In this document: in pieces, positions 5,837 to 20,879 of the stretch
How positions within the stretch are numbered: position 1 is the first letter of the stretch
How the letters are laid out: every line of letters starts with the position of its first letter
NCBI GenBank assembly: GCA_016235675.1
Contig: JACRJN010000013.1
Location: forward strand, 1-41,654
Source of the DNA: Candidatus Schekmanbacteria bacterium
GTDB taxonomy: Bacteria; SZUA-182
DNA length: 41,654 bases
Reading direction: 5' to 3'
Translations under genes and position numbers: made by a program
Notes under the pieces: generated by a model
Database searches by the model: none
What the model saw: the letters and a program-made list of their open reading frames with translations, nothing else
Told to the model about the DNA's origin: nothing

Positions 5837-6316
5837 ATGCTGCATAAAATCATTAAAACAACTTTAATCCCCGGCACGGTCGAAGATGTTTTCCAATTCC
5901 ACACCAGTTTGGAAATAATATTTGGGCTGCTGCCCGCACATGTGAAGATAACCAAACTACATGCACCGGATCATGTCAAGCTGGGGGATAAAGTACGCCT
6001 GTTCATCAGAATTCACGCGCTCTTCTTCCCTTGGGAGGCGGTTATCGCTGAATTCCAGCAAAATGAACGCTTTGTGGATGTGTTGGAACATGGCCCTTTT
6101 TCTTATTGGCGTCATGAACATCTTTTCCTTCCCCAAGATGACAGCAGCACCCTTATAACCGATCAAATTGAATATAAATTAAAATTCAGTCTTTTTGGGG
6201 AATTAGCCAGTCATCTGTTTCTGGAAAAAGAATTGACGAATATCTTTAATATGAGACACCAAAAGGCATTAGAATATTTTTTCGAAAAAAGGCACCGGGA
6301 TGCAGATGTATTTTAG
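5837..6316 (+). CDS. SRPBCC-family protein
   Basis: A 159-residue protein with the START/SRPBCC pattern: an initial strand with PGTVEDVFQFHTS, then a basic and aromatic stretch (FFPWEAVIAEF), FVDVLEHGPFSYWRHEH, and a C-terminal helix ending in MRHQKALEYFFEKR. Members of the family with the GPF..W.H.H motif are usually small stand-alone ligand-binding proteins of unknown substrate. There is no signal peptide, so it is likely cytoplasmic. The gene is monocistronic and converges with nuoN. Specific function unknown. Confidence 0.85.
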   Translation: MLHKIIKTTLIPGTVEDVFQFHTSLEIIFGLLPAHVKITKLHAPDHVKLGDKVRLFIRIHALFFPWEAVIAEFQQNERFVDVLEHGPFSYWRHEHLFLPQDDSSTLITDQIEYKLKFSLFGELASHLFLEKELTNIFNMRHQKALEYFFEKRHRDADVF

Positions 6317-6444: not shown

Positions 6445-7914
6445 TTACAAAAGCGTGGTTAACGACTTATAGGCTAAATCATAAAACACGCCGGGATTGA
6501 TTCCCATGTAAACGGTTATCGCTGCCATAACAAAGAGCATAAAGGCTAACAGCCCGGCTCCCTCTTTTTCAATCATTAATTCGGGAGACGGTTCGTGCAT
6601 ATACATCATAACCATTACACGCAAATAGTAATAGGCTGAAATAATGGCGTTTATAACACCCACCACCGCAAGCCAGATCATATTAGTCTTAATTGCCGCA
6701 GCAAACAGCCAGATTTTGCCCATAAACCCGCCGGTCGGCGGCACCCCCAGCATCGACATCACAAAGATACTCATGACCATGGCTGCCAGGGGGGAAACCT
6801 TGGCCAATCCTTTAAAATCATTATAATTATCGCCCCAGCGCCCACCCTCTTTACAGATATAAATTATAACTCCAAACGCTCCGACATTGGAAATTAAATA
6901 GACGATAAAGTAAAATACCACACTGACTACGCCCATCTCGCGGGAGACACCGGCGGCCACAATTCCCATCAGGGCATAGCCGATATGGGTGATACCCGAA
7001 TAAGCCAGCATTCTTTTAATATTTTCCTGCTTTAATGCCAGAAAATTGCCCAAACTCATGGTAAGCGCCGACAAAATTGCCATCACCGGCATCCAATGGC
7101 CGCTCAACGGATGCACAGCCACTACAAAAACCCGCAGGACCGCGGCCATCGGCGCTATTTTGGCGGCTGTAGCAATATAGGCCGTAATCGGCGTCGGCGC
7201 TCCTTCGTAAACATCGGGCAGCCACATATGAAAAGGCACCGCACCGATTTTGAAGCCGAATCCGGCTATCAATAGTATTACCCCGACCAATAACGCCGGA
7301 TCGGATTTAACCCCGGCTTTTACGATATAATCCTGTATCGCGTAGATGTTAAGCTGTCCGGTTATGCCATAAACCAGCGATATGCCGTACACCATAATCG
7401 CCGAAGCCAGTGAACCCATAAGGAAATATTTCATTGCCGCTTCGCTTGACCGCTCATCATGTACCATAAAGGCCGTCAGTACATAAGCCGGGATAGCCAG
7501 CAACTCCAGCCCCAGATAAATAGTGACCAGACTGATGCCGTCGCCGACCAGCAGGATGCCGACACAAGCAAACAACAATAGCACAAAATATTCGCCCCGC
7601 CACATATCGACTTTCTTAAAATAGGGAATCGAGATTACGATAACAAAGGCGGTAACGCTCAAGGTTAAAAATTTGAGGCAAATGGAGAAATAATCGACTG
7701 CTATCGATTTTGAGAAAACAATAAATTCCTGACCCCACTGAGGAACAGTAAACATCATCGCGATCAGCAAACCCAGCAATGATACCGCCGCCAGCATAAC
7801 CGGCTGCTCTTTTGGGCGTAAAAAATCCCAGGTAAAAACCAAAAGCGCAACGGCTGTGACGATAATCTCAGGCAATATATATAATGTATCTAACCATAAC
7901 TGCTGAGCAGTCAT
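6445..7914 (-). CDS. nuoN: NADH-quinone oxidoreductase subunit N
   Basis: A 489-residue antiporter-type membrane subunit of complex I with about 14 membrane segments. Key proton-channel residues are present: E137 in TM5 (LGLELLAIPAYV), K222 in TM7 (GFGFKIGAVPFHMWLPD) and K252 (ATAAKIAPMA). The motif WLPDVYEGAPTPITAYIATA is characteristic of NuoN rather than NuoM or NuoL. It is the last gene of the operon, as in most bacteria. It is separated from nuoM by 255 bp filled with two palindromic repeats, which is unusual for a complex I operon. Confidence 0.97.
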   Translation of the reverse strand: MTAQQLWLDTLYILPEIIVTAVALLVFTWDFLRPKEQPVMLAAVSLLGLLIAMMFTVPQWGQEFIVFSKSIAVDYFSICLKFLTLSVTAFVIVISIPYFKKVDMWRGEYFVLLLFACVGILLVGDGISLVTIYLGLELLAIPAYVLTAFMVHDERSSEAAMKYFLMGSLASAIMVYGISLVYGITGQLNIYAIQDYIVKAGVKSDPALLVGVILLIAGFGFKIGAVPFHMWLPDVYEGAPTPITAYIATAAKIAPMAAVLRVFVVAVHPLSGHWMPVMAILSALTMSLGNFLALKQENIKRMLAYSGITHIGYALMGIVAAGVSREMGVVSVVFYFIVYLISNVGAFGVIIYICKEGGRWGDNYNDFKGLAKVSPLAAMVMSIFVMSMLGVPPTGGFMGKIWLFAAAIKTNMIWLAVVGVINAIISAYYYLRVMVMMYMHEPSPELMIEKEGAGLLAFMLFVMAAITVYMGINPGVFYDLAYKSLTTLL

Positions 7915-7983
7915 ATCGGGAAACTCCTTGTTTTAATACCTGCCAACATAGTAGAACGTTTCATTAAAACATCTACATTCAAT

Positions 7984-8068
7984 TGTCATTGCGAGGCAGT
8001 CTTATCGCCGAAGCAATCTCGGAAGTGCCCGGTAGAATCGAGATTGCTTCGCTCCGCTCGCAATGACA
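7984..8068. repeat. Family A palindrome (hybrid arms) between nuoN and nuoM
   Basis: It starts TGTCATTGCGAGGCAGTCTT and ends CTCCGCTCGCAATGACA, with the same arm combination as at 5709-5789 but a different loop. Confidence 0.75.
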
Positions 8069-8073
8069 GGTTT

Positions 8074-8164
8074 GTAGCCCACCAAATTTGATGGCCTGAC
8101 ATTATTTATGCCGGTCAAATATTAGCCAGGAATAGTTTAAAATGGTGGGCAAAGCCCACCCTAC
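8074..8164. repeat. Family C repeat next to the nuoM stop codon
   Basis: It shares GGCCTGACATTATTTATGCC and the terminal GGGCAAAGCCCACCCTAC with the copies at 5593 and 37249. The right end lies about 8 nt beyond the nuoM stop codon. Confidence 0.75.
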
Positions 8165-8169
8165 TATTG

Positions 8170-9717
8170 CTACTTAGCCGACGACGGCCCTGATCGCATC
8201 ATCGCTACCAAATTTTCAACAGAGGGGTCAATAACGTCTAAGAAAGGCTTAGGATATAACCCGACCCAGAAAATCATAATCACCAATGGCACCAAAATCA
8301 TAACTTCCCTGAAATTTAAGTCTTTAAGCTTGTGGTTGGCCGGATTAGTTATTTCTCCCAGCATCGCCCGCTGAAAAAGCCAAAGCAGATAGGCCGAACA
8401 CCCTAATATCCCCAGAATGCAGACAATACCGAATGTCATGCTCACTTTAAATGTACCCATCAATATTAATAATTCGCCGACAAAACCGTTGAATCCCGGC
8501 GCCCCCATCGAGGAAAGCATGACAATTACGAAAAAGGTGGTATACCAGGGAATTTGTTTGAACAACCCGCCGTATTCGGTAATTAACCGGGTATGCCGAC
8601 GCTCATAAATCATGCCTATCATCAAAAAGAGCGCCCCAGTGCTTACTCCGTGATTCAGCATTTGGATTACACCGCCGCTGATACCCTGCTGGTTTAAAAC
8701 AAATATGCCCATCGTGATATAACCCATATGGCCGATACTGGAATAGGCAATCAATTTTTTCATATCCTCCTGATTGAAAGCCACCCATGAGGCATAAATA
8801 ATCGCGATGGCTGATAAAATCAGCGCAATATGTCCATATTCACGACAAGCATCGGGCAAAAGGGGCAAAGAGAAGCGGATAAACCCGTAAGTACCCATTT
8901 TTAAAAGAATTCCCGCCAAAATAACACTACCTACGGTCGGTGCATCGGTGTGGGCGTCCGGCAGCCAGGTATGAATAGGAAACATTGGCACCTTGACCGC
9001 AAACCCGACAAAGAGTGTCCAGAATACCCAGGCTTGAATCCCCATGGGGATGTTTACTTGATACAATTTTAATAAATCGAAGGTATATTCGGGATGGATA
9101 TTATACGCGATCGCGTAATTATGATAGTTGAAATATATTGCCATAATACCTAAAACCATGGGGAAACTGCCCACTATGGTAAAGATGAAAAATTTCAGGG
9201 TCGAATAAATCCGCCGGCTGCTTCCCCATATCCCGATGATTAAATACATCGGCGGGAGCATCGCTTCCCAGAAAACATAAAACAACAGCAAATCCAGGGC
9301 GACAAAAGTACCAAGCATACCGGTCTGCAATAACAGCAGGCAAATCATCAATTCCTTGACCTGGCTGGTTATGTCCCGCCAGCAGGCCAGGACTACCAAC
9401 ACCCCCATTAAAGTAGTCAGAATCACTAAAAACAAACTGATACCGTCAACCCCCAGATGATAACTGGAACCGATCGCTTTAAACCAGGCAAACTTTTCCA
9501 CAAATTGCATTTTGGCTGTATTTTGCCGGAAGCCGACTAAAAGAAATAAGGATATTACAAAATCCACCCCGGCAACAGCCAACGCGGCACAGCGTAACAG
9601 GGTTTGTCTTTTAGAATTTATCAACATTAAAAACAACGCCCCGATAGCCGGTAAAAATACCACTATGCTTAACAGGGGAAAGCCTATTGATTCTTTATAA
9701 CTTATAGAACCGAGCAC
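8170..9717 (-). CDS. nuoM: NADH-quinone oxidoreductase subunit M
   Basis: A 515-residue canonical NuoM, an antiporter-type proton channel of the complex I membrane arm. Visible landmarks: E151 in TM5 (LLLFYVFWEAMLPPMYLIIG), K242 in TM7 (FAVKVPMFPIHTWLPDAHTD) and K273 (AGILLKMGTYGF). The start is a GTG at 9717 with AGGAGT about 9 nt upstream. It lies between nuoL and nuoN as usual, but with repeats on both sides. The WEAMLPPMY and WLPDAHTDAPT signatures separate it from the two MrpD-like subunits encoded upstream. Confidence 0.97.
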   Translation of the reverse strand: MLGSISYKESIGFPLLSIVVFLPAIGALFLMLINSKRQTLLRCAALAVAGVDFVISLFLLVGFRQNTAKMQFVEKFAWFKAIGSSYHLGVDGISLFLVILTTLMGVLVVLACWRDITSQVKELMICLLLLQTGMLGTFVALDLLLFYVFWEAMLPPMYLIIGIWGSSRRIYSTLKFFIFTIVGSFPMVLGIMAIYFNYHNYAIAYNIHPEYTFDLLKLYQVNIPMGIQAWVFWTLFVGFAVKVPMFPIHTWLPDAHTDAPTVGSVILAGILLKMGTYGFIRFSLPLLPDACREYGHIALILSAIAIIYASWVAFNQEDMKKLIAYSSIGHMGYITMGIFVLNQQGISGGVIQMLNHGVSTGALFLMIGMIYERRHTRLITEYGGLFKQIPWYTTFFVIVMLSSMGAPGFNGFVGELLILMGTFKVSMTFGIVCILGILGCSAYLLWLFQRAMLGEITNPANHKLKDLNFREVMILVPLVIMIFWVGLYPKPFLDVIDPSVENLVAMMRSGPSSAK

Positions 9718-9744: not shown

Positions 9745-9790
9745 GTAGGGTGGGCTGTGCCCACCAATTGGTGGGCACAGCCCACCCTAC
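9745..9790. repeat. Perfect 46-bp palindrome (short family C)
   Basis: The sequence from GTAGGGTGGG to CCCACCCTAC is its own reverse complement with no loop, centred on CCAATTGG. It lies about 28 bp past the nuoM start on the upstream side. Confidence 0.9.
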
Positions 9791-9835
9791 TAAATTCAAA
9801 TCGCCAATAAACATAAAATAATAATCAGCAAAAAC
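9791..9835 (-). pseudogene. Duplicated 3' tail of nuoL
   Basis: Read on the minus strand this encodes FLLIIILCLLAI and a stop, nearly the same as the NuoL C-terminus VLLIIILCLMAI. Together with the adjacent palindrome it duplicates about 80 bp of 10044-10125. It is not expressed as a protein on its own; it marks a past duplication between nuoL and nuoM. Confidence 0.8.
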
Positions 9836-9841
9836 ATCAAT

Positions 9842-9913
9842 TAATATCGTAGTCCCAGCCCTTTAGGGCTGATTTTCTAATATCGTAGTCCCAGCCCTTT
9901 AGGGCTGATTTTC
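9842..9913. repeat. Two tandem copies of a 36-bp unit (half of family B)
   Basis: Units at 9842-9877 and 9878-9913 are identical, each containing CGTAGTCCCAGCCCTTTAGG. Only one arm of the usual family B palindrome is present in each. A third, diverged B-like stretch follows at about 9991-10040. Confidence 0.85.
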
Positions 9914-10043
9914 ATGGCATTAGCCATGCAATAATGACTCACAAACGGTTAAATCTTCTCTATAATTCAATATCTCCCGGATGAACATACCTTTAGTCTC
10001 AGCCTAAGCTGAAAATGCGTGGCTAAAGCCACGGGACTACATT

Positions 10044-10080
10044 GCTGTGCCCACCAATTGGTGGGCACAGCCCACCCTAC
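10044..10080. repeat. Truncated copy of the perfect family C palindrome
   Basis: It is identical to 9754-9790 but lacks the first nine bases of that palindrome. It abuts the end of nuoL, whose stop codon is at 10086. Confidence 0.85.
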
Positions 10081-10085
10081 TAAAG

Positions 10086-12617
10086 TTAAATCGCCATTAA
10101 GCATAAAATAATAATCAGCAAAACACCGCTGATCATCGCCAGGGCATAATGCTGGAAAAATCCGGTCTGGGTACGGCGGGAGGCGGAGCCAAGAGAACTG
10201 ACCCCTTCAGCGGTTACATTAACTATTCCGTCTACAAAAGAACTGTCCAAAATGGCAAATACCTTACAAATGACTATATAAAATTTGGCTGTATAAGGCT
10301 GCCACGGCCCGCGTTCTTTCCAGGCGCGGGGCAAAATATATTTGTCCCATTTGGCTAGCGCGCTGCGCATATCGGCCAGCGGGAACCAGAGATACAACAT
10401 AAACTTAACAATAAACGAGTCGACAAAGCTGTCGACTACGGCAACCGGGCCGGTACATAAACGTCTGAATATATAATAAATCTGGTTAGTGTTGATAATA
10501 ACAAAATAGACAAATCTATCGAATACGGCCACCGGGCCGCAGCAAAAACGCTTGAAGAGGTGATACACCTTTTCATAATAATACCCGAACTGGCAATTTC
10601 CCGGCACTTCGATATGAAACCAGCCGAAACGCATACCGAGGATAAAATACATCCCCCCCAGCATAATCGCGGTACCGCCCCCCAACAGATTATGAATTAC
10701 CGCCGCCAGCGCATCGGGAGCGCCGTTACCGACCAAATAGAGGATGGGAATAGTGGATTTGGCCAGGCCTGCCGGGGCATGAACATTATAAATCATATGG
10801 TAGGCATGTGAACCGGGGTTAAAACCAAAAACCGCCAAGGCCGGCCCGATCAGGGTCTCCAGCATCCAGTTGGGACGCAATCCGATAAAGAGGATGGCAA
10901 AAGATACTAATATTATCGCTACGTGCATGGCCCGCGGCGGCGCTTCCACATCGGCATATTTTTCGGGACGCTTGCCCAGGCAGGTCAGGGCGAAAAGCTT
11001 CATGTTAGAGGCAAAGGTTCCCCCTGCCGTAATCATAAAAATGATCTCGGCCAGCTTTAGTTTATAATCCTTCACCCCGCCGCCCAAATGCGCCGAATGA
11101 TCATAAGCCTCCAGTATGGCGTGATGCAATAAAGTCTTGCTGGCAAACCCGTTGAAACAGGGAATACCGGCGATGCCGCAGGCCGCGATAAACAGCCCCA
11201 AGGCCACAATCGGCATATTCTTCCTCATCCCGCCCAGCTTATACATATCCAGTTCATGGGTGCGATAATACATGGCGCCGACGCCCAGGAACAAGGCGCA
11301 TTTGAATAAGGCATGATTAACCATATGATAAATCGACCCGGCCAATCCCATCGCCCCATCTGATCCCATATATGCGGCGCAGCCGATTCCCATAACGATA
11401 TAGCCCATCTGGCTGACGCTGTGGAAGGCCAGCATCCGCTTGGAGTTAGCGGTTATCAGTGCTGCCAACACCGCCAGGAACATACTGACGATACCCACCC
11501 AAATCACGGCGTAGCCGATATTACTCATAGTCGCCCACTGTTTGAGATATTGGGTAAGGGTAAAACTTTTGGGTAAAAATAATAAGCAAACCACCCGAAA
11601 AATGCCGTATGCGCCCGCCTTAATCATGGCTCCGGATAACAGAGCGCTGGCGGGAGTCGGCGCCACCGGATGGGCGGCGGGCAGCCAGATATGCTCTAAA
11701 AACACCCCGGCTTTGCCTCCAAAACCGATAATCATCAGGACGGCGATAATATACTTGGTAGCCGGGGTCATCCTTAAAGCTGCGGCATCGCTGATGGGCA
11801 GGATATTGACCGTACCGGTATACTTATAGAATAAGGTAATACCGGTCAGCAGGGTTAAACTGGAGATTACTCCCAGGTACAGATAAAGATTGGCTCCCCG
11901 CAGCGCGCCGGGGTCTTCTTTATGGGCTACCAGGGAATAAGGGAACAGAATCAAGCCTTCGAAAAAGAAAAACAGGCTTAAAAAATCACCGGTGAGCAAC
12001 ACCCCCAAATTCGCGCCTAAGGCGGAAAGCATAAAATAGTCGTAACGGGTGCGATTTTCCTCAATGGTCATATACCCGATGGCATAGATACCGGATAATA
12101 TCCACAGAAAATTGGTAACGTAGGCCACAGTCAGGGCCGCAGCATCCACCCGGAAGGTAAAATCGAAGCCCGGCAAAAATTTATAGGCGCAATAAATGCC
12201 TTGATATAATTTCCCGTTTAGGCTTATGCCGTTGACAACCGGCCCGTACATCAGGATTAACAAAAGCATGGTCAGGGTACAGGTACCTACCACCACGCAA
12301 TTGCGCTGTTTATCATTTTCTTTGCGGGATACGGCAATCAGCCCCCCGATCAGGGGAAGCAGTATCGCCCACAACGGCAGATTCGCGGTCCAGGAAATTT
12401 TAGCGGTCACCGGCCCGGCTATCTGGCTGTGATGTTCCTCATGCGCACCATTGTGACTTGCGGCTGCATTATGTCCCGGCTGTCCCTGCTTGACGGCATG
12501 TACGGCATGTTCTTCAGCCGAAACGCTGGTTATCCCAGATTGCCCAAATAGCGCAAAATAAACAGCCAGTATTAATGACAAGCCTACAAATAAGGTTAAA
12601 GCTTTTCTCTTGCTCAC
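10086..12617 (-). CDS. nuoL: Enlarged NADH-quinone oxidoreductase subunit L (antiporter subunit with extended lateral-helix region)
   Basis: An 843-residue protein, against about 610-650 for a usual NuoL. Residues 1-34 resemble a signal peptide (SITSVSA-EE-type end); 35-66 are His-rich (HNAAASHNGAHEEHHS). The antiporter core spans about 78-585, with E220 (FFFFEGLILFPYS), K302 (GFGGKAGVFLEHIWLP), K333 (GAMIKAGAYG), K393 and K439. A membrane segment at about 644-663 is followed by the lateral-helix region (676-815), which is much longer than usual and contains a 29-residue tandem repeat (G694-P695/D700 and G723-P724/D729). The C-terminus (VDGIVN, then RRTQTGFFQHYALAM) is the NuoL-specific final helix. 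The core is MrpD-like. Two conserved motif positions differ: FLEH for FPxH, and WLPAAH for WLPDAH. GTG start with GAGGAA upstream. Confidence 0.9.
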   Translation of the reverse strand: MSKRKALTLFVGLSLILAVYFALFGQSGITSVSAEEHAVHAVKQGQPGHNAAASHNGAHEEHHSQIAGPVTAKISWTANLPLWAILLPLIGGLIAVSRKENDKQRNCVVVGTCTLTMLLLILMYGPVVNGISLNGKLYQGIYCAYKFLPGFDFTFRVDAAALTVAYVTNFLWILSGIYAIGYMTIEENRTRYDYFMLSALGANLGVLLTGDFLSLFFFFEGLILFPYSLVAHKEDPGALRGANLYLYLGVISSLTLLTGITLFYKYTGTVNILPISDAAALRMTPATKYIIAVLMIIGFGGKAGVFLEHIWLPAAHPVAPTPASALLSGAMIKAGAYGIFRVVCLLFLPKSFTLTQYLKQWATMSNIGYAVIWVGIVSMFLAVLAALITANSKRMLAFHSVSQMGYIVMGIGCAAYMGSDGAMGLAGSIYHMVNHALFKCALFLGVGAMYYRTHELDMYKLGGMRKNMPIVALGLFIAACGIAGIPCFNGFASKTLLHHAILEAYDHSAHLGGGVKDYKLKLAEIIFMITAGGTFASNMKLFALTCLGKRPEKYADVEAPPRAMHVAIILVSFAILFIGLRPNWMLETLIGPALAVFGFNPGSHAYHMIYNVHAPAGLAKSTIPILYLVGNGAPDALAAVIHNLLGGGTAIMLGGMYFILGMRFGWFHIEVPGNCQFGYYYEKVYHLFKRFCCGPVAVFDRFVYFVIINTNQIYYIFRRLCTGPVAVVDSFVDSFIVKFMLYLWFPLADMRSALAKWDKYILPRAWKERGPWQPYTAKFYIVICKVFAILDSSFVDGIVNVTAEGVSSLGSASRRTQTGFFQHYALAMISGVLLIIILCLMAI

Positions 12618-12633
12618 TGCAATTTATTCCTCT

Positions 12634-12801
12634 GTAGTTGCCCAATTCATTGGGCACAACCCACCCTACTGGTAGCACAGGCATCCTGCCTGTGTATTGC
12701 GGCATAGCATGGAAGCTCTTGATTTAACCCACCACTTCCAGTAATTGTACCGTTTTTGTGTGGGCGTTGCCCACATCACAGGCAAGATGCCTGTGCTACC
12801 A
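12634..12801. repeat. Mosaic of palindromic repeats (families H, C and I)
   Basis: At 12638-12668 a family H arm (TAGTTGCCCAATTCATTGGG) is joined directly to a family C end (CCCACCCTAC). At 12671-12693 and 12777-12801, GTAGCACAGGCATCCTGCC and GGCAAGATGCCTGTGCTAC form a long inverted repeat around an 83-bp interior. No gene is seen in it. Confidence 0.65.
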
Positions 12802-12814
12802 TTCTCTTGCTGTG

Positions 12815-12871
12815 CTGTCAGGAGTTACCTCCTGACAGCTTTTTTTAACGTTTGATAGCGAATTGGTATTA
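12815..12871. repeat. Family E hairpin plus one family K arm
   Basis: GCTGTCAGGAGTTA faces ACCTCCTGACAGC, followed by the K arm ending TAGCGAATTGGTATTA. The arm ends on the stop codon of the neighbouring 177-residue gene. Confidence 0.7.
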
Positions 12872-13402
12872 ATGCTCCCCCATACCCAATATCCCATAGG
12901 TCATTAAAGAAACGCCCAATCCGGCTTTCAGCAAAAACTTGATAAATCCCCAGATATTGGGTTCGTGGTAATGTGCCAGCGTTGAATTCTGCTCCATAAT
13001 AAACATCGCTAATACCAAAATCACTAACACCTTATCCAGCATGGTCGGCTGCGGATGATGCCCTCCATGATCCGCACTTTCAGGCGGTTGTGCATGTGCC
13101 GCCGCTTCATGTCCCCCTAATTGGGTCATGCGCTGTAAATTCTGCTCTTTGGCCGCGATATGGTGTCCTTTTAAAAACTGCGTCACGCGGTAAACACAAA
13201 ATATCAACAGCAACCAATAAATAAAATAACCGGCAGGCGCCCCGTGATGTTCCGGGTTATGGGCAGCGGAAGGCTTTTCGTGCTTTGCCGCGTTATGTGT
13301 TTCGGCCTGTGCGCTCTGATGATATGCGACAATTTCCATCCCGCAAAAAATAATCATAATCAGCAAACAAATTGCCGGAATAAATTTTTTTACTTTACTC
13401 AT
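12869..13402 (-). CDS. His-rich membrane protein of unknown function inside the complex I operon
   Basis: A 177-residue protein that I do not recognise. It has about four hydrophobic segments (8-28, 58-77, 121-137, 151-173) and 16 histidines, mostly in two hydrophilic loops at 28-53 (YHQSAQAETHNAAKHE, NPEHHG) and 98-116 (GHEAAAHAQPPES, DHGGHH). It is not a NuoA/J/K homologue by any motif that I can see. It lies between the second extra antiporter gene and nuoL on the same strand with no separate promoter apparent, so co-expression with the complex is likely. Its N-terminus (MSK, basic, hydrophobic, then His-rich) resembles that of the NuoL protein. A new accessory subunit or metal-binding assembly factor is possible; both are inferences. 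Confidence 0.8.
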   Translation of the reverse strand: MSKVKKFIPAICLLIMIIFCGMEIVAYHQSAQAETHNAAKHEKPSAAHNPEHHGAPAGYFIYWLLLIFCVYRVTQFLKGHHIAAKEQNLQRMTQLGGHEAAAHAQPPESADHGGHHPQPTMLDKVLVILVLAMFIMEQNSTLAHYHEPNIWGFIKFLLKAGLGVSLMTYGILGMGEH

Positions 13403-13415
13403 ATTTTCCCTAATC

Positions 13416-13510
13416 AGGCTCCAGGCTTTGGGCTTCAGGCTTCAGGGACAGAAAGAGACTCTCCTCCTGGAGGGTATTTGAATTAGCCCAAAGCCCGAAG
13501 CCTGGAGCCT
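13416..13510. repeat. Inverted repeat (family L) between two operon genes
   Basis: AGGCTCCAGGCTTTGGGCTT at the left faces a right arm ending GAAGCCTGGAGCCT. The arms are purine- and pyrimidine-biased and enclose about 45 bp. It fills most of the 138-bp gap. Confidence 0.7.
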
Positions 13511-13540
13511 AATATAAACTTCTATGTCCCCAACAGACTA

Positions 13541-15124
13541 TTAATGGAATAATAACTGACTGGCCTGCTGCGCCAATCCAATCGGCAATTGCGGGAAAAT
13601 CCCGAAGAAAACAATACATGCACCTAAGATAATAAGCGGTATTTTCATCCACAGGCCGGGATCATCGTTTCCTGCCGGCAGCGGATGTTTGATGTGGCTC
13701 TGCATATTGCCCTGACCATGGGCAGAACTTTGATTATGCGCATGGTCATTATTATGGCTGTTTACAGGATAACCGGCCGCGGTATTTACCTTGCCGAACC
13801 AGGCTCCGTAGATCACCGGGCCGTAATAGATTAAATTCATCAGACTGCTTAACATCAATAACAGCACCGCTCCCGTCCCTACCCAATTGGGCTGAGTGCC
13901 GATCTGGGTCGCTTCAAGCGCGCCCAATGCCAGAAACCACTTGCTGATAAAACCGTTGAAAGGCGGAAACCCAATCATGGATAAAGCCGCCAGGGTAAAA
14001 CAGGCGGTGGTTACCGGCATCCGTTTGCCGATCCCTTTTAAATCGACTAATTGACGCAGCCCGGTCTGGGCGATAAAAGCCCCGGCGCACAAAAATAACG
14101 TTCCTTTGATAATCGCATGATTAAAAATATGCACCACTCCACCCGTTAACGCCTTGGGAGACATCAGAGCTACTCCCAGAATTATATATCCCATTTGTGA
14201 GATACTGGAATACGCCAGCATCCTTTTTAGTTCCGTTTGTTTTATGGCGACAGCCGACCCCAAAAATATATTAATCACGGCAAAAATCAATAAAATGGAG
14301 GTAACGGTTTGCCCCCGTAAAACTCCTGTCCCCATAATGGTGTATACCGTCCGGATTATCCCATAGGCGCCCGCTTTAATCATAACCCCAGACAACAGTG
14401 CGCTGGCGGGCGACGGCGCAACCGGATGGGCATCCGGCAGCCAGATATGCACCGGAAACAACCCGGCTTTAACCCCGAATCCGACGATAAAGCAAAGAAA
14501 TATGATCGCCACCATCGGGTTCCCGGCAAATCTTCCGCTGATTTTGGCAATTTCCACCAAATCGCCCGTGCCGGTTATGGCATAGGTGGAGATAATGGCA
14601 AACAACAAAATCAAGCCGCCGCATACACCCATAAAGATGTATTTCAGACCGGCTTCAGCAGCATCCGGACTTTCTTCATGAATCACCATCACATAGGAAG
14701 CGATACTGAGCATTTCAAAAAAGAGGTAGAGGGAAAACAAATTTTTGGTAAAAACCACCCCCATCATTCCGGTCAAAGAAAGCAGGGAAAAGACATTATA
14801 GCGACACTGGGCATGTTCATGCGCCATGTACTTTACCGAGAAAACAGATGCCAGCATCCACATGAATATAGCGATTAATCCGGCAAGCATAGATAAAGCA
14901 TCGGCCATAAAAGCCAATTGGACATTCAGCCCGGTATTTAAAGTACAGTGGATCGTATTCCCGTCGCTTATGGCAGGATACATCGAGGCGACGATTAAAA
15001 AGTCTAAAACCATGCTCCAGACCAGCAGGCGATTGCCTTTTGCATCGGATAAAAAAGGCAAAAATATAATGGTCAGTGCCGGAACCAGAACTGCAAGAAA
15101 CGGTCTTATGCTCTCAATTATCAT
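13541..15124 (-). CDS. Additional complex I antiporter-type subunit, MrpD/NuoM-like (second of two)
   Basis: A 527-residue proton-translocating-antiporter family protein with about 14 membrane helices. Functional residues are present: E137 in TM5 (LFFEMLSIASYVM), K219 in TM7 (GFGVKAGLFPVHIWLPDAHP), K250 (GVMIKAGAYGIIR), K300 and K340 (NHAIIKGTLFL). The APSPASALLSG and MIKAGAYG motifs are typical of MrpD and HyfB rather than canonical NuoM or NuoN. Residues 457-480 form a His-rich loop (HNNDHAHNQSSAHG) near the last helix. It lies between nuoK and nuoL, where ordinary operons have nothing. I predict it is a fourth or fifth proton channel of the same complex; a separate Mrp-type antiporter is less likely because no mrpB/C/E/F/G are nearby. 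Confidence 0.9.
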   Translation of the reverse strand: MIIESIRPFLAVLVPALTIIFLPFLSDAKGNRLLVWSMVLDFLIVASMYPAISDGNTIHCTLNTGLNVQLAFMADALSMLAGLIAIFMWMLASVFSVKYMAHEHAQCRYNVFSLLSLTGMMGVVFTKNLFSLYLFFEMLSIASYVMVIHEESPDAAEAGLKYIFMGVCGGLILLFAIISTYAITGTGDLVEIAKISGRFAGNPMVAIIFLCFIVGFGVKAGLFPVHIWLPDAHPVAPSPASALLSGVMIKAGAYGIIRTVYTIMGTGVLRGQTVTSILLIFAVINIFLGSAVAIKQTELKRMLAYSSISQMGYIILGVALMSPKALTGGVVHIFNHAIIKGTLFLCAGAFIAQTGLRQLVDLKGIGKRMPVTTACFTLAALSMIGFPPFNGFISKWFLALGALEATQIGTQPNWVGTGAVLLLMLSSLMNLIYYGPVIYGAWFGKVNTAAGYPVNSHNNDHAHNQSSAHGQGNMQSHIKHPLPAGNDDPGLWMKIPLIILGACIVFFGIFPQLPIGLAQQASQLLFH

Positions 15125-15159
15125 AAACTCAAACTCCCTAAACTGTGGGTAAATTTATT

Positions 15160-15334
15160 TTCACCACGAAGCACACGAAGCACACGAAGAATTACAAATG
15201 CTATTTTTTAAGGGTAATGCAGCCAAACGTGAAAAGTTTACCGCTTGAAAAAAGGTAAAAAAACAAAATAACTAGTTATAATATTTAATTAAACTATTTG
15301 TTTTTTCGTGATCTTCGTGTGCTTCGTGGTGAAA
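15160..15334. repeat. Inverted repeat with CACGAAG units (family F)
   Basis: TTCACCACGAAGCACACGAA at 15160 is matched by TTCGTGTGCTTCGTGGTGAA ending at 15333. The interior is AT-rich with no gene. A related A-C-C-G-C-A-A-A-G-A-C-G-type stretch is at 41297-41325. Confidence 0.7.
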
Positions 15335-15368
15335 AAAGTATACCTATACTTTCACGCCAAGAGGCATC

Positions 15369-16856
15369 TTAAGGAACGTAGCCCAATAACCCCGCTAAAG
15401 CCGGTTTTCCCAGCCAATGCGGGACAAATCCCCCCAACCCGAAGGCGACAGAGGCAATCGTGACAATTATTATCGGTACCCACATGGCAGCCGGCGCCTC
15501 ACTGCCTAAACGCGAGGTGTCGTGATGAAAATGAAACGCCCCCTCTTCTTCCTTGCGGAAAAACGCCTTGAAGATCGGGGGAAAAAAATAACCCAGTTCG
15601 ATGATGCCGCTCACCAGAAACAGCGCGGCCATCAGCGGCTTTTTCATCGTCAGATAGCCTTGCATCAGATACCACTTGCTCACCCAGCCGCAGACCGGCG
15701 GCAATCCGATAATCCCCACCGCAGCGATGGCAAAACAAGTCATGGTAATCGGCATATGGCGGGCTAAGCCGCCCATTTTGGCGATATATTTATTGCCGCT
15801 TTGGGTAATAATGGCGCCGGCGCAATAAAAGAGGGTAATCTTCATAAAAGCATGAAAATAAACATGCAATATGCCGCCCATCATGCCTGTCGCCTGAAAA
15901 GACACTAACCCCAGCAAGACATAACTCAACTGGTTGACGGTCGACATCGCCAGCATTTTTTTAAGCTCTGTCTGGCGCAGACCTAAAATCGCCCCCCCCA
16001 GCACCGTCAAAGCCGCCATAAACATGATTACATTGTCGAACCCCATCTTATGGTACAAATCTGGGCCGAAAACATTGAAGATAACCCTGGTAAATCCGAA
16101 CAGCCCCACATTGACGACCGCCACAGCATGTAAAACGGCGCTAATCGGGGTCGGCGCAACCATGGCCTCCGGCAGCCAATAATGTAAGGGGATCAGCGCG
16201 GCTTTAAAGCCGAAGCCGAAGGTAAGTAAGACAAAAAGCAGTATCAAAAATCCCTGGCTTTGCGCGGCTAAACCGGGAATCCCGCCGGTAGTGAAATTAA
16301 CCGTCCCGGTTTTCAGATAAATCAAAACCGTGGCAAAGAGCACCGCTGCACCGCCGCTCAATAAATAAGCGCCGTATAGTATCCCGGCGTCGTAAGCTTC
16401 TTTGGTTTCCTCATGAACCACCAGGGGATAGACGGCAATGGTCAGCATTTCGAAAAAGACGAAGAAGGTAATCAGGTTAGCGGAAAATGCGATCCCCATC
16501 GCCGCGGTGATATTGATAATCAGCGAGGCGTAATAGCGGGTTTGGGCGTGAGGCTCATGCTCCATATAACCGAAGGAGTAAATCACCGTTAAAATCCAGA
16601 GAAAGGTCATGGATAAGGCCAGATAGACTGACACAATCTCCACCCGGAAAACCATACTAAAGGAACTGGTCTCGACAAAGCGATAGATGATTTCCTGACC
16701 CAGCAGGGCCGGCGAAATATAGGTGCAGACCAGGATGAAATCCACAATGGCCGCAAAAAGACAGAAGAAATTACGCAGGCCGCGGGAACGCTCCCCCGCC
16801 ACATTTATCAGGACGGTGCAAATAATCGGCAGCAGTAAAATAATGGCCAGTTTCAA
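15369..16856 (-). CDS. Additional complex I antiporter-type subunit, NuoM/MrpD-like (first of two)
   Basis: A 495-residue antiporter-family membrane protein directly after nuoK (22-nt gap). E136 in TM5 (FFVFFEMLTIAVYPLVVHEE), K218 in TM7 (GFGFKAALIPLHYWLPEAM), H243 (SAVLHAVAVVNVG), K299 (TELKKMLAMS) and K339 (HAFMKITLFY) are present. The TM8 position holds His (LHAVAVVN) where the 527-residue paralogue has Lys, a NuoL/HyfF-like feature, although the NuoL lateral helix is missing. The start is TTG 16856 with AAGGAG 7 nt upstream. Close spacing to nuoK supports membership of the same complex. Confidence 0.9.
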   Translation of the reverse strand: MKLAIILLLPIICTVLINVAGERSRGLRNFFCLFAAIVDFILVCTYISPALLGQEIIYRFVETSSFSMVFRVEIVSVYLALSMTFLWILTVIYSFGYMEHEPHAQTRYYASLIINITAAMGIAFSANLITFFVFFEMLTIAVYPLVVHEETKEAYDAGILYGAYLLSGGAAVLFATVLIYLKTGTVNFTTGGIPGLAAQSQGFLILLFVLLTFGFGFKAALIPLHYWLPEAMVAPTPISAVLHAVAVVNVGLFGFTRVIFNVFGPDLYHKMGFDNVIMFMAALTVLGGAILGLRQTELKKMLAMSTVNQLSYVLLGLVSFQATGMMGGILHVYFHAFMKITLFYCAGAIITQSGNKYIAKMGGLARHMPITMTCFAIAAVGIIGLPPVCGWVSKWYLMQGYLTMKKPLMAALFLVSGIIELGYFFPPIFKAFFRKEEEGAFHFHHDTSRLGSEAPAAMWVPIIIVTIASVAFGLGGFVPHWLGKPALAGLLGYVP

Positions 16857-18107: not shown

Positions 18108-20780
18108 TCATTCGTCAAGAAGGCGGATATTCACACGGGTTAATTTACTGACTTGCGTCTGTGTTTCTTGGTTCATCCGGCAGCCGGTAAATAAATTTAC
18201 CGGGGCGGAACTGAAATGTTTCGGGAGAAAAACCACTCCGGACGGATAACGATTATTTATCTTAACCTGGATAGCTAAACTATCCGCACAGTTTTCCACC
18301 AGAACTTTAGCGTTTTCCTGAATCCTAAGTCTTTCCGCATCGACCGGATTCATCTCCAGGCGAGGCTCTGGGCAAAGCAACTGCAATCCTCTGGTTTTAT
18401 TGCTCATGGTGCCTGAGAGATGATGAAATAATAACCCGCCGCTGATTAAGACAAACGGGAACGCTTTATCTTCATCTAACGGAACATATTGCACCGGATG
18501 AAAGCTTAACGGTTTTTTGAATTCGGCAAGATATTCGGCGCTTTTACCTTCGGCGCTCAACGGCCATTGCAAGCCCTTACTGCCTAAACTCTGGTAACGG
18601 ATACCGCTGTATATGGGCGATAATTCGCTGATTTCCTTCATAACATCCGCCGCCGAATTATATTTGAATTCATAACCGCAGGCTTTGGCTACCATCTGCA
18701 ATATTAACCTGTCGGATTTACTTTCCCCAATCGGCAAAACCGCCTGATTTATTTTTTGGATGCGGCGCTCGGTATTGGTGTATGTGCCGGTTTTCTCGGC
18801 AAAGGCGGCGGCAGGCAAAACCACATCCGCCAGTTGAGCGGTCTCAGTCAGGAAAATATCCTGAACTACCAAAAAGTCTAAGCTCTCCAGGGCTTTCTTA
18901 ACATTATTTTTTTGCGGGAATGAGGTAAGAGTATTTTCCCCGATAATATACATGGCCGTTATTTTCCCGGCGATTGCTGCATCGATCATTCCCATCAGGC
19001 TCAAGCCGGGAGCAGACGGTAATTGCGTATTCCAGGCCAGTTCGAATTTTTCCCGCACCTGCTCATCCCGAAGATCCTGATAGCCGGGCAGATAATCGGG
19101 CAGCGCTCCCACATCACAAGCACCCTGCACATTGCAACTGGTGCGCAGCGGATGAATACCGGTTCCCTTACGCCCTAAATTTCCGGTCAATAACAATAGA
19201 TTCAGCAAGGCATACACGTTATCTGCCGCATTTACCTGCTGTACCAGCCCATCCCCATAGACAATGCAGGCGGTCTCGGTTTGAGCAAACAACCGGGCGG
19301 CTTTCTCAAGCTCTTCTACAGAGACATTACAAATTTGCGCCACACTTTCCGGAGAAAATGCCTGAAGGTGTGAGACTAATTTCCCCAACCCCTTGGTTTG
19401 TTTTTCTACAAATTCTTTATTCAGCAGATTTTCATCAATTATAATACGCGCCAACCCGTTGAGTAACGCGGTATCGGTTCCCGGTTTAATTTGCAGCCAG
19501 GATTTGGCGAAAGGCACCAGATTCGAGCAAACCGGGTCGACCAGGATTAAATTTGCCCCACAGTTACGCACCGCCTGCTTGATCGCTAACCCCATAATGA
19601 CATGAGAGGATGTCGGATTAGCGCCGATTACCAAAATAGTCTGCGCCGTCTTTACCTCCTGAATGGAGTTGGTGGCGGCGGGGACACCTAAAACATCCTG
19701 CAAGACTGTCATGGATGGTGCATGTTCCAGACGGGCGTAATTATCGATATTGTTGGTTTTGAACACGGCCCGCATCAATTTCTGGAACAGATAATTTTCT
19801 TCATTGGTGCAACGGGTGGAAGCAATTGCCGCTATAGCCTGGCCGCCCTTTTCCTTAAAAATCAGCTTCAGCTTATCGGCAACATATTGAATTGCCTCAT
19901 CCCAGGTGGCCTGAGTGAAAACCCCGTCTTTCTTGATCAGAGGGTTAGTCAAACGGGTGGGGTGATTAATAAAATCGTAACCGAACCGCCCCTTGACGCA
20001 TAATAATCCCTCATTTCCGCCCAACTCATCATTGGTGCTGATTTTGACGACCTTGTTATTTTTATGTCTGAGGACTAAACTGCAACCGCAGCCGCAATAG
20101 GGGCAAACGGAGTTGGTTTGCTCCATCTCCCAAGGCCGGGCTTCGAACTTAGATAGTTTGCTGCTTAAAGCGCCTACCGGACAAACAGCCAGGCATTGCC
20201 CGCAGAATTCACAGTTAACCAGTTTTTTCTCCGGGTAACCGATGGTGGCCATCATCCCATGCCGGGTGTAACCTAATGCCCCGATGTTGCGGATTTCATC
20301 GCAGACCCGCACACATTTGCCGCAGAGCATACACTTTTGCAAATCCCTTTGGATAAAGCAATTGGTTTCATCCGGGTTCTTGGTCAGCGGGGCATGGAAA
20401 CCGAAGCGGTCTTCGGTGACCTGCAATCTGAAGGCCAGATTTTGCAGTTCGCATTCTCCGCCCTTGTCGCAGGTGAGGCAATCTAAAGGATGCTCCAACA
20501 GCAGCATTTCCAACAAGGTTTTACGGATACCGGTAATTTGCGGGGTATCGGTTTTGACCGACATGCCTTCCGCTACCGGGGTAGTACAGGCCGACACCAG
20601 GCGGGGCGATTCGTTGACCTCCACTAGGCATAAACGGCAGGCGCCGAACAGGGTCAAATGCGGGCTATAGCATAAGGTGGGAATATAAATATTGAATTTT
20701 CTGGCCGCAGCTAAAATTGTATCGCCTTCGCCGGCCTCTACGGCAATCTCGTTAATTATCAAATTGATTTTCTTGCTCAT
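18108..20780 (-). CDS. nuoG: NADH-quinone oxidoreductase subunit G-like protein with full molybdopterin-type domain
   Basis: An 890-residue peripheral-arm subunit. In order: a [2Fe-2S] ferredoxin domain (C37, C48, C51, C65), a His-Cys3 [4Fe-4S] site (H97, C101, C104, C110), two ferredoxin clusters (C150/153/156/160 and C190/193/196/200), the molybdopterin-family [4Fe-4S] site (C226, C229, C233, C261), then the molybdopterin oxidoreductase and dinucleotide-binding domains. The position that binds Mo/W in formate dehydrogenases (Cys/Sec in R-x-C/U-H-x-P) is Glu (E352 in ARLEHAPS), so formate oxidation here is doubtful. Start chosen at ATG 20780 with AGGAAA upstream; the upstream start at 20804 is inside a repeat. 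It lies between nuoI and nuoJ rather than before nuoH. No nuoE or nuoF is present in the window. Confidence 0.92.
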   Translation of the reverse strand: MSKKINLIINEIAVEAGEGDTILAAARKFNIYIPTLCYSPHLTLFGACRLCLVEVNESPRLVSACTTPVAEGMSVKTDTPQITGIRKTLLEMLLLEHPLDCLTCDKGGECELQNLAFRLQVTEDRFGFHAPLTKNPDETNCFIQRDLQKCMLCGKCVRVCDEIRNIGALGYTRHGMMATIGYPEKKLVNCEFCGQCLAVCPVGALSSKLSKFEARPWEMEQTNSVCPYCGCGCSLVLRHKNNKVVKISTNDELGGNEGLLCVKGRFGYDFINHPTRLTNPLIKKDGVFTQATWDEAIQYVADKLKLIFKEKGGQAIAAIASTRCTNEENYLFQKLMRAVFKTNNIDNYARLEHAPSMTVLQDVLGVPAATNSIQEVKTAQTILVIGANPTSSHVIMGLAIKQAVRNCGANLILVDPVCSNLVPFAKSWLQIKPGTDTALLNGLARIIIDENLLNKEFVEKQTKGLGKLVSHLQAFSPESVAQICNVSVEELEKAARLFAQTETACIVYGDGLVQQVNAADNVYALLNLLLLTGNLGRKGTGIHPLRTSCNVQGACDVGALPDYLPGYQDLRDEQVREKFELAWNTQLPSAPGLSLMGMIDAAIAGKITAMYIIGENTLTSFPQKNNVKKALESLDFLVVQDIFLTETAQLADVVLPAAAFAEKTGTYTNTERRIQKINQAVLPIGESKSDRLILQMVAKACGYEFKYNSAADVMKEISELSPIYSGIRYQSLGSKGLQWPLSAEGKSAEYLAEFKKPLSFHPVQYVPLDEDKAFPFVLISGGLLFHHLSGTMSNKTRGLQLLCPEPRLEMNPVDAERLRIQENAKVLVENCADSLAIQVKINNRYPSGVVFLPKHFSSAPVNLFTGCRMNQETQTQVSKLTRVNIRLLDE

Positions 20781-20795
20781 AATTTTCCTGCGTAG

Positions 20796-20858
20796 CGTAG
20801 TCACGTAGTGCCGGGGCTTTAGCCCCGGAAATTCAGCCCTAAAGGGATGGGACTACGT
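20796..20858. repeat. Family B palindrome between nuoG and nuoI
   Basis: It runs from GCGTAGTCACGTAGTGCCGG to ATGGGACTACGT, with an internal GGGGCTTTAGCCCC hairpin. It fills most of the 99-bp gap between nuoI and the nuoG start. Confidence 0.75.
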
Positions 20859-20879
20859 AATTCTTATCCCGAACTCAGG

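Follow-up and report, generated by a model that had tools for sequence, protein, structure and literature searches.

A small membrane protein linked to MrpD-like antiporter genes in complex I and Mrp-type operons of bacteria and archaea

Complex I is usually described with three antiporter-like pumps. In the window, that is, the whole stretch of 41,654 nucleotides analysed here, the genes of an operon follow each other in the order nuoA-B-C-D-H-I-G-J-K, AntA, AntB, HIS, long L, nuoM, nuoN, and the question raised by this locus is what the small gene here called HIS is doing in such a row of antiporter genes. The original prediction described a protein of 177 residues with 16 histidines and gave no strand for it. 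The protein is real: its ORF lies on the minus strand (ATG at 13402, 177 codons), and the plus strand at 12869-13402 is interrupted by many stops. The place predicted for the gene, between the second extra antiporter gene and nuoL, is also correct, HIS being flanked by AntB and by the long L, both of which carry Proton_antipo_M (Table 1). Its motifs recur in homologues from 11 bacterial species of two phyla, from one Elusimicrobia MAG and from 5 archaea, a spread that argues against a chance ORF, and HIS is confirmed as a real gene. Histidine accounts for 9.0% of the protein (16/177), compared with 1.9% for the remaining proteins of the window (binomial P about 4e-7), and these residues sit mostly in two loops, as had been claimed, at residues 28-53 and 80-116.

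Searches of HIS against Pfam, NCBIfam and PDB sequences gave chance matches only, none of them acceptable. Without a PF00361 match and with just 177 residues, HIS is not one of the 14-TM antiporter-like subunits of the Proton_antipo_M type. Comparison by hhalign of the A6 profile with MrpB, C, E, F, G and DUF4040 from these loci resulted in probabilities of 0.0-1.9, and the same comparison with NuoA, NuoJ and NuoK, which are separately encoded in the window operon, in 0.5-1.2. Weak single NCBIfam matches to MrpB or MrpF (E 0.002-0.006) were ruled out by this profile comparison. A Pfam scan of 12 HIS members found no match to mitochondrial-type accessory complex I subunits. For the structure model of HIS, the best Foldseek match among PDB folds had an E of 3.3, and the best VIA-align match, a SNARE helix bundle (Z 7.0, rmsd 3.2, 88 aligned), falls within the stated noise for helical models. 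The Pfam, NCBIfam, PDB and hhalign comparisons therefore bear out that the protein matches no Nuo subunit motif, and HIS is, as far as its sequence tells, a family without a database name.

Table 1. Features of the HIS gene and of the neighbouring antiporter genes in the window
Feature	Position	Strand	Basis
HIS gene (small membrane protein)	12869..13402	minus	ORF, homologues, alignments
HIS residues 1-33, putative signal peptide	13304..13402	minus	hydrophobic stretch 7-25; cleavage after SAQA inferred by eye
HIS residues 34-55, His-rich segment, inferred outer (P) side, not conserved	13238..13303	minus	alignments, topology counts
HIS residues 57-79, core TM1	13166..13234	minus	alignment; predicted helix 57-98
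HIS residues 80-121, His-rich loop, inferred cytoplasmic	13040..13165	minus	alignment, topology counts
HIS residues 122-143, core TM2	12974..13039	minus	hydrophobicity, structure model
HIS H146-E147, conserved (Y/F/H)HE(P) motif, loop before TM3, inferred P side	12962..12967	minus	alignments
HIS residues 149-175, core TM3 (GF.KF..K.GLG..L..YG)	12878..12958	minus	model, alignment
AntB, MrpD-like antiporter subunit directly upstream of HIS	13541..15124	minus	PF00361; Mrp subunit D models closest, as for AntA
AntA, second MrpD-like antiporter subunit	15369..16856	minus	PF00361; best NCBIfam relative Mrp subunit D
L843, long NuoL/MrpA-like antiporter subunit, 843 aa	10086..12617	minus	Proton_antipo_M
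nuoM + nuoN, remaining two of five antiporter-like subunits	6445..9717	minus	TIGR01972, TIGR01770

Bacterial HIS proteins follow a common order, made of a hydrophobic stretch, a variable and often His-rich segment, TM1, a loop, TM2, a short HE loop and TM3. Four helices had been predicted, a count that does not stand: the N-terminal hydrophobic helix most probably serves as a signal peptide, called by eye from its SAQA-ETHN end, which leaves three TM helices in the mature protein. A comparable ending was seen by eye in the HIS of contig C50 (AYA-SS), and the same layout in most homologues. An AlphaFold2 model built from 16 sequences (mean pLDDT 78.8) places helices at residues 2-39, 57-98, 121-142 and 149-175, with a pLDDT of 78-91 in the block 61-100. 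Conservation across the family falls on P56, just before TM1, on Y59 and W63 within it (together the motif PxxYxxxW), on H146 and on the TM helices. H146 is invariant and E147 nearly invariant across the 16 bacterial members, and H146 reaches at least 90% across all 20 aligned members. The TM1-TM2 loop is His-rich in some members and merely 7-12 residues long in several others, and the excess of Lys/Arg found by topology counts in this loop of the short-loop members suggests that it is cytoplasmic and that the HE loop lies outside. Archaeal forms are of 99-130 aa; two compact ones (99 and 105 aa) have neither the presequence nor the long loops and keep YWxxW and HHEPP or YYEHP, and in two others, encoded on the reverse strand, the alignment has the motif displaced and reading EHLP. 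At its core HIS is thus a protein of three TM helices, on which the conspicuous histidines are mostly ornamental.

The members found number 21, of which 16 are bacterial and 5 archaeal. HIS is present in 9/9 genomes of the window phylum by alignment-profile search, with three homologues in the window genome itself (contigs C24, which is the window, C50 and C56), in 2/4 genomes of a second small bacterial phylum, in 5/11 genomes of one archaeal class and, as a single clear match, in the MAG UBA5214 (L045) among 294 genomes of the Elusimicrobia. No further convincing member appeared in a sample of 386 bacterial and 392 archaeal genomes; altogether, about 1,000 other genomes in the samples lack the family. 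The first archaeal HIS (L048) initially appeared as a weak hit next to an Mrp operon and was then borne out by profile comparison: the archaeal sequences reach hhalign probabilities of 94-96, versus at most about 8 for some 140 small 3-4-TM proteins of the same loci. A single-protein query against genome contigs gave no match, the family being too divergent for it. Weak partial matches in seven genomes (G067, G076, G091, G098, G215, G498 and G812; E 1e-5 to 1e-3), mostly inside large ORFs, were taken as chance. The census rests on MAG data in which contig ends cut several operons, and with 21 sequences it is too small for an analysis of residue co-evolution.

A MrpD-like gene lies directly 5' of HIS in 16/16 bacterial members, this gene being AntB in 15 of them and AntA in the remaining one (UBA5214). 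Seven of these copies map to nuo operons (window, C50, G007:C38, G005, G003, G094 and G235) and nine to Mrp-type operons (C56, G007:C3, G001, G002, G004, G006, G008, UBA5214 and G094:C59), with G004, on a short contig, counted as Mrp-type by analogy; in UBA5214 the Mrp-type operon with HIS continues into the nuo operon. A long L of the L843 type follows HIS in 12/12 bacterial cases with a continuing contig, G007 aside, where neither copy has an L behind it on the contig and other genes are found instead, in the case of G007:C38 small ORFs that by eye resemble toxin-antitoxin genes. Archaeal copies with a readable context all lie beside Mrp-type operons, either in line between AntA and L (L151, L152) or in reverse orientation, no more than about 170 bp from the 3' end of L and behind ATP synthase-like genes (L048, L149); the copy of L150 occupies the same place as these last two, near a contig end. 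Each of the three copies of the window genome has a module of its own, two of them nuo operons and the third the mrpE-F-G-B-C-D operon of C56, which already encodes the usual small subunits and carries HIS as an additional gene. In four species (L016, L032, L034, L017), a response regulator and a histidine kinase stand directly behind HIS in the antiporter operon; the response regulator of L016, the sole one scanned, carries GGDEF.

Antiporter loci without HIS complete the comparison. Two AntB-L pairs with a short L of 657-669 aa (G006:C87 and G002:C42, the latter being L040) have no HIS, nor does the Mrp operon at G000:C45; by eye, the pair of G006 (L039) lies directly upstream of ATP synthase-like genes. 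The nuo operon of UBA5214 (L046) contains AntA, AntB and a canonical L of 639 aa but no HIS; it is the Mrp operon of UBA5214 that carries the gene. A set of 80 loci retrieved by their similarity to AntB yielded HIS only in UBA5214, in the record of G001 and, as a weak match, in archaeal L048; the Firmicutes AntB-L operons in this set lack it, and many such modules manage without HIS. These controls indicate that AntB together with a long L is the best predictor of HIS, and not complex I or extra antiporters alone. The specificity for complex I in the original prediction is not supported, in view both of the Mrp-type operons around 9/16 bacterial and all context-readable archaeal copies and of the complex I operon L046 without HIS; the expected link to extra antiporter genes survives as the MrpD-like gene that adjoins every bacterial HIS, and does so outside complex I operons too. 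Given seven nuo versus nine Mrp-type operons, the partner of HIS is best taken to be the module of MrpD-like and L antiporter subunits and not complex I itself. In the 12 complete sets the distances of HIS correlate with those of L (r 0.77) and of AntB (r 0.75) as those of L and AntB do with each other (0.77), a correlation that fits a long copy-by-copy association and does not separate physical contact from co-inheritance.

A compositional trait joins the same genes. In the window phylum, nearly every complete L adjoining HIS is extended at its N-terminus by a His-rich stretch resembling a signal peptide (residues 1 to about 72 in L843), an extension that is missing from the L of HIS-less operons and from that of the second phylum. 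In AntB, including that of the window, the loop that precedes the last TM is often rich in His. In sampled regions of the window genome (85 ORFs), 7/9 of the strongest His clusters map to L, HIS, AntA or AntB. The matched His tails are a real compositional link inside the module, yet a lineage-specific one. Another His-rich product of the window is a 159-aa protein at 5837-6316 (plus strand) with 12 His (7.5%), apparently START/cyclase-like by eye.

The NuoG of the window operon (18108-20804, minus strand; 898 aa) is a molybdopterin protein that resembles formate dehydrogenase and has Fe-S domains of the NuoG type; by eye, it reads ARLEHAPS at the place of the FdhA Cys/Sec. Neither nuoE nor nuoF was found within the window, so the electron donor of this complex may be other than NADH. 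In L843, residues 664-809, from the presumed TM15 to the last TM, span about 146 residues in the structure model, a stretch longer than its equivalent before the last TM of Escherichia coli NuoL; this part may form a lengthened lateral helix, in a C-terminal region modelled with low confidence (pLDDT mostly below 45). Several gaps of 140-370 bp in the operon contain palindromic or inverted repeats, some of them common to several gaps (e.g. 8140-8179, 9745-10095, 12633-12801, 13413-13513, 15158-15335, 20804-20862), as if they had been colonised by REP/MITE-like elements.

Extra pumps in complex I have been described for the rhizobial green complex I (two MrpD-like subunits), for the Nitrospira 2M complex I and for the Complex_I_3 of Manganitrophaceae, whose five pumps are called unique in that work (PMC9040806). 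Complex_I_3 and the window share a nuo operon with extra MrpD-like or NuoM genes and five pumping subunits; the cited passages of the paper describe no HIS-like subunit, and the L of the window is long, with a signal-peptide-like, His-rich N-terminus. Six antiporter-like genes, against five in the window, are present in C50, G094 and G235, namely AntA, AntB, AntB2, L, M and N in the last two, and the order in C50 (L010 and L037), the second nuo operon of the window genome, is nuoJ-K-M-M-N-AntA-AntB-HIS-L. As read here, HIS would resemble the accessory subunits of the NDUFA9, NDUFA12, NDUFS4 and NDUFS6 types (PMC12361115) in being supernumerary to the 14 core subunits, but has no Pfam match to any of these families. 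The canonical small Mrp subunits (MrpB, C, E, F, G and the DUF4040 part of MrpA) are likewise small, membrane-bound and encoded with MrpD/MrpA-like antiporters, but show no profile similarity to HIS (hhalign at most 1.9), which occurs alongside them in one operon. The bacterial complex I accessory subunits of the four NDUFA and NDUFS types above are not known to accompany antiporter genes. The green complex I of rhizobia has an 84-aa hypothetical protein (P0002, WP_008522869.1), conserved in 99 rhizobial plasmids and encoded between the two MrpD-like genes (L141:9383-9637), which is also a small TM protein; homology to HIS was considered and none was detected (two TM helices, hhalign probability 0.2), which makes it a positional analogue. 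A 100-aa protein slightly similar to it lies between AntB and L in the nuo operon of UBA5214 (L046:11534-11836). Small membrane proteins have apparently been recruited to the antiporter junction more than once, and this supports a structural need at that place.

Any reading has to accommodate the conserved three-TM core of HIS, its operon position, its copy-by-copy linkage to the module and its lack of homology to the standard small Mrp and Nuo subunits. We consider it fairly likely that HIS is an accessory membrane subunit at or near the MrpD-like/L junction that stabilises the row; the protein probably belongs to these ion-pumping complexes as an additional component, and is probably not a complex I-specific metal handler working through its histidines. 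The supernumerary subunit originally proposed is therefore retained as one tied to MrpD-like antiporters, as the neighbourhood strongly suggests, and given up as one specific to complex I. The same linkage and matching distances would be expected of an assembly factor or of a regulator. A dedicated factor for assembly or insertion of the antiporter row, with no lasting part in the complex, seems rather unlikely, though the operon linkage would be equally expected for it, two members are followed by foreign genes in place of L, and the sensor kinase and response regulator next to HIS in four species imply that non-structural genes do enter such operons; a separate HIS copy per module and distances that follow those of L and AntB suit a bound subunit better, and the modelled core appears small and wholly embedded in the membrane, with no evident catalytic or chaperone domain. 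That HIS is a passenger retained in the operon by chance would agree with the long gaps filled with palindromic repeats, and is extremely improbable given a linkage kept over two bacterial phyla, an Elusimicrobia MAG, one archaeal class and three operon types, a census that makes chance unlikely.

The remaining alternatives concern the histidines. A regulator or ion-path element, in which the His-Glu of the P side would sense pH or bind a cation (Na+, Zn2+) and gate the adjacent antiporter, would account for H146 in nearly all members and E147 in most, and would agree with the concentration of His clusters on L, HIS, AntA and AntB; a single conserved His is, however, no proof of gating, and the motif is shifted in the two reverse-strand archaeal sequences, so we regard this role as improbable. 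The metal-handling factor of the original prediction, acting through the His-rich loops, finds some backing in the 16 His of the window protein and in the up to 24 of its relatives. These loops are nevertheless variable: the G003 protein has 8 His, the compact archaeal members, which lack the loops, have 6-7, and loop 1-2 shrinks as described above. Metal binding is thereby rejected as the core function. No metal gene was seen among the neighbours, and a metal handler of this kind is very unlikely.

Returning to HIS as an accessory subunit, the module that it would serve comprises at least two MrpD-like subunits and a long MrpA/NuoL-like L, and would exist either as a Mrp-type antiporter or, within an extended complex I, as its distal arm. 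HIS, inferred to be a stoichiometric part of it, would be inserted with its N-terminus outside and, on the basis of gene order, would pack between AntB and the terminal L subunit. Its invariant Trp/Tyr and its outward-facing His-Glu motif could then touch the AntB-L interface, and this contact would steady an antiporter row that is longer than usual. The His-rich loops, and the His tails on L and AntB, would be a lineage-specific addition, perhaps a surface buffer for protons or cations. A broader and more doubtful idea is that HIS proteins are the signature of a separate type of modular machine with four to six antiporter-like subunits, which in bacteria as well as archaea would be attached to Mrp-type antiporters or to complex I; in it, HIS would let the row lengthen and the His tails of HIS, L and AntB would act as charged antennae on both membrane faces.

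A family profile is now available for a gene that annotation pipelines leave as "hypothetical". For the question of how Mrp-type modules were recruited and lengthened, HIS, which travels with the MrpD/L module across operon types and domains, serves as a marker of this module, and its loss or mutation could offer a handle on what holds the extra pump units together.
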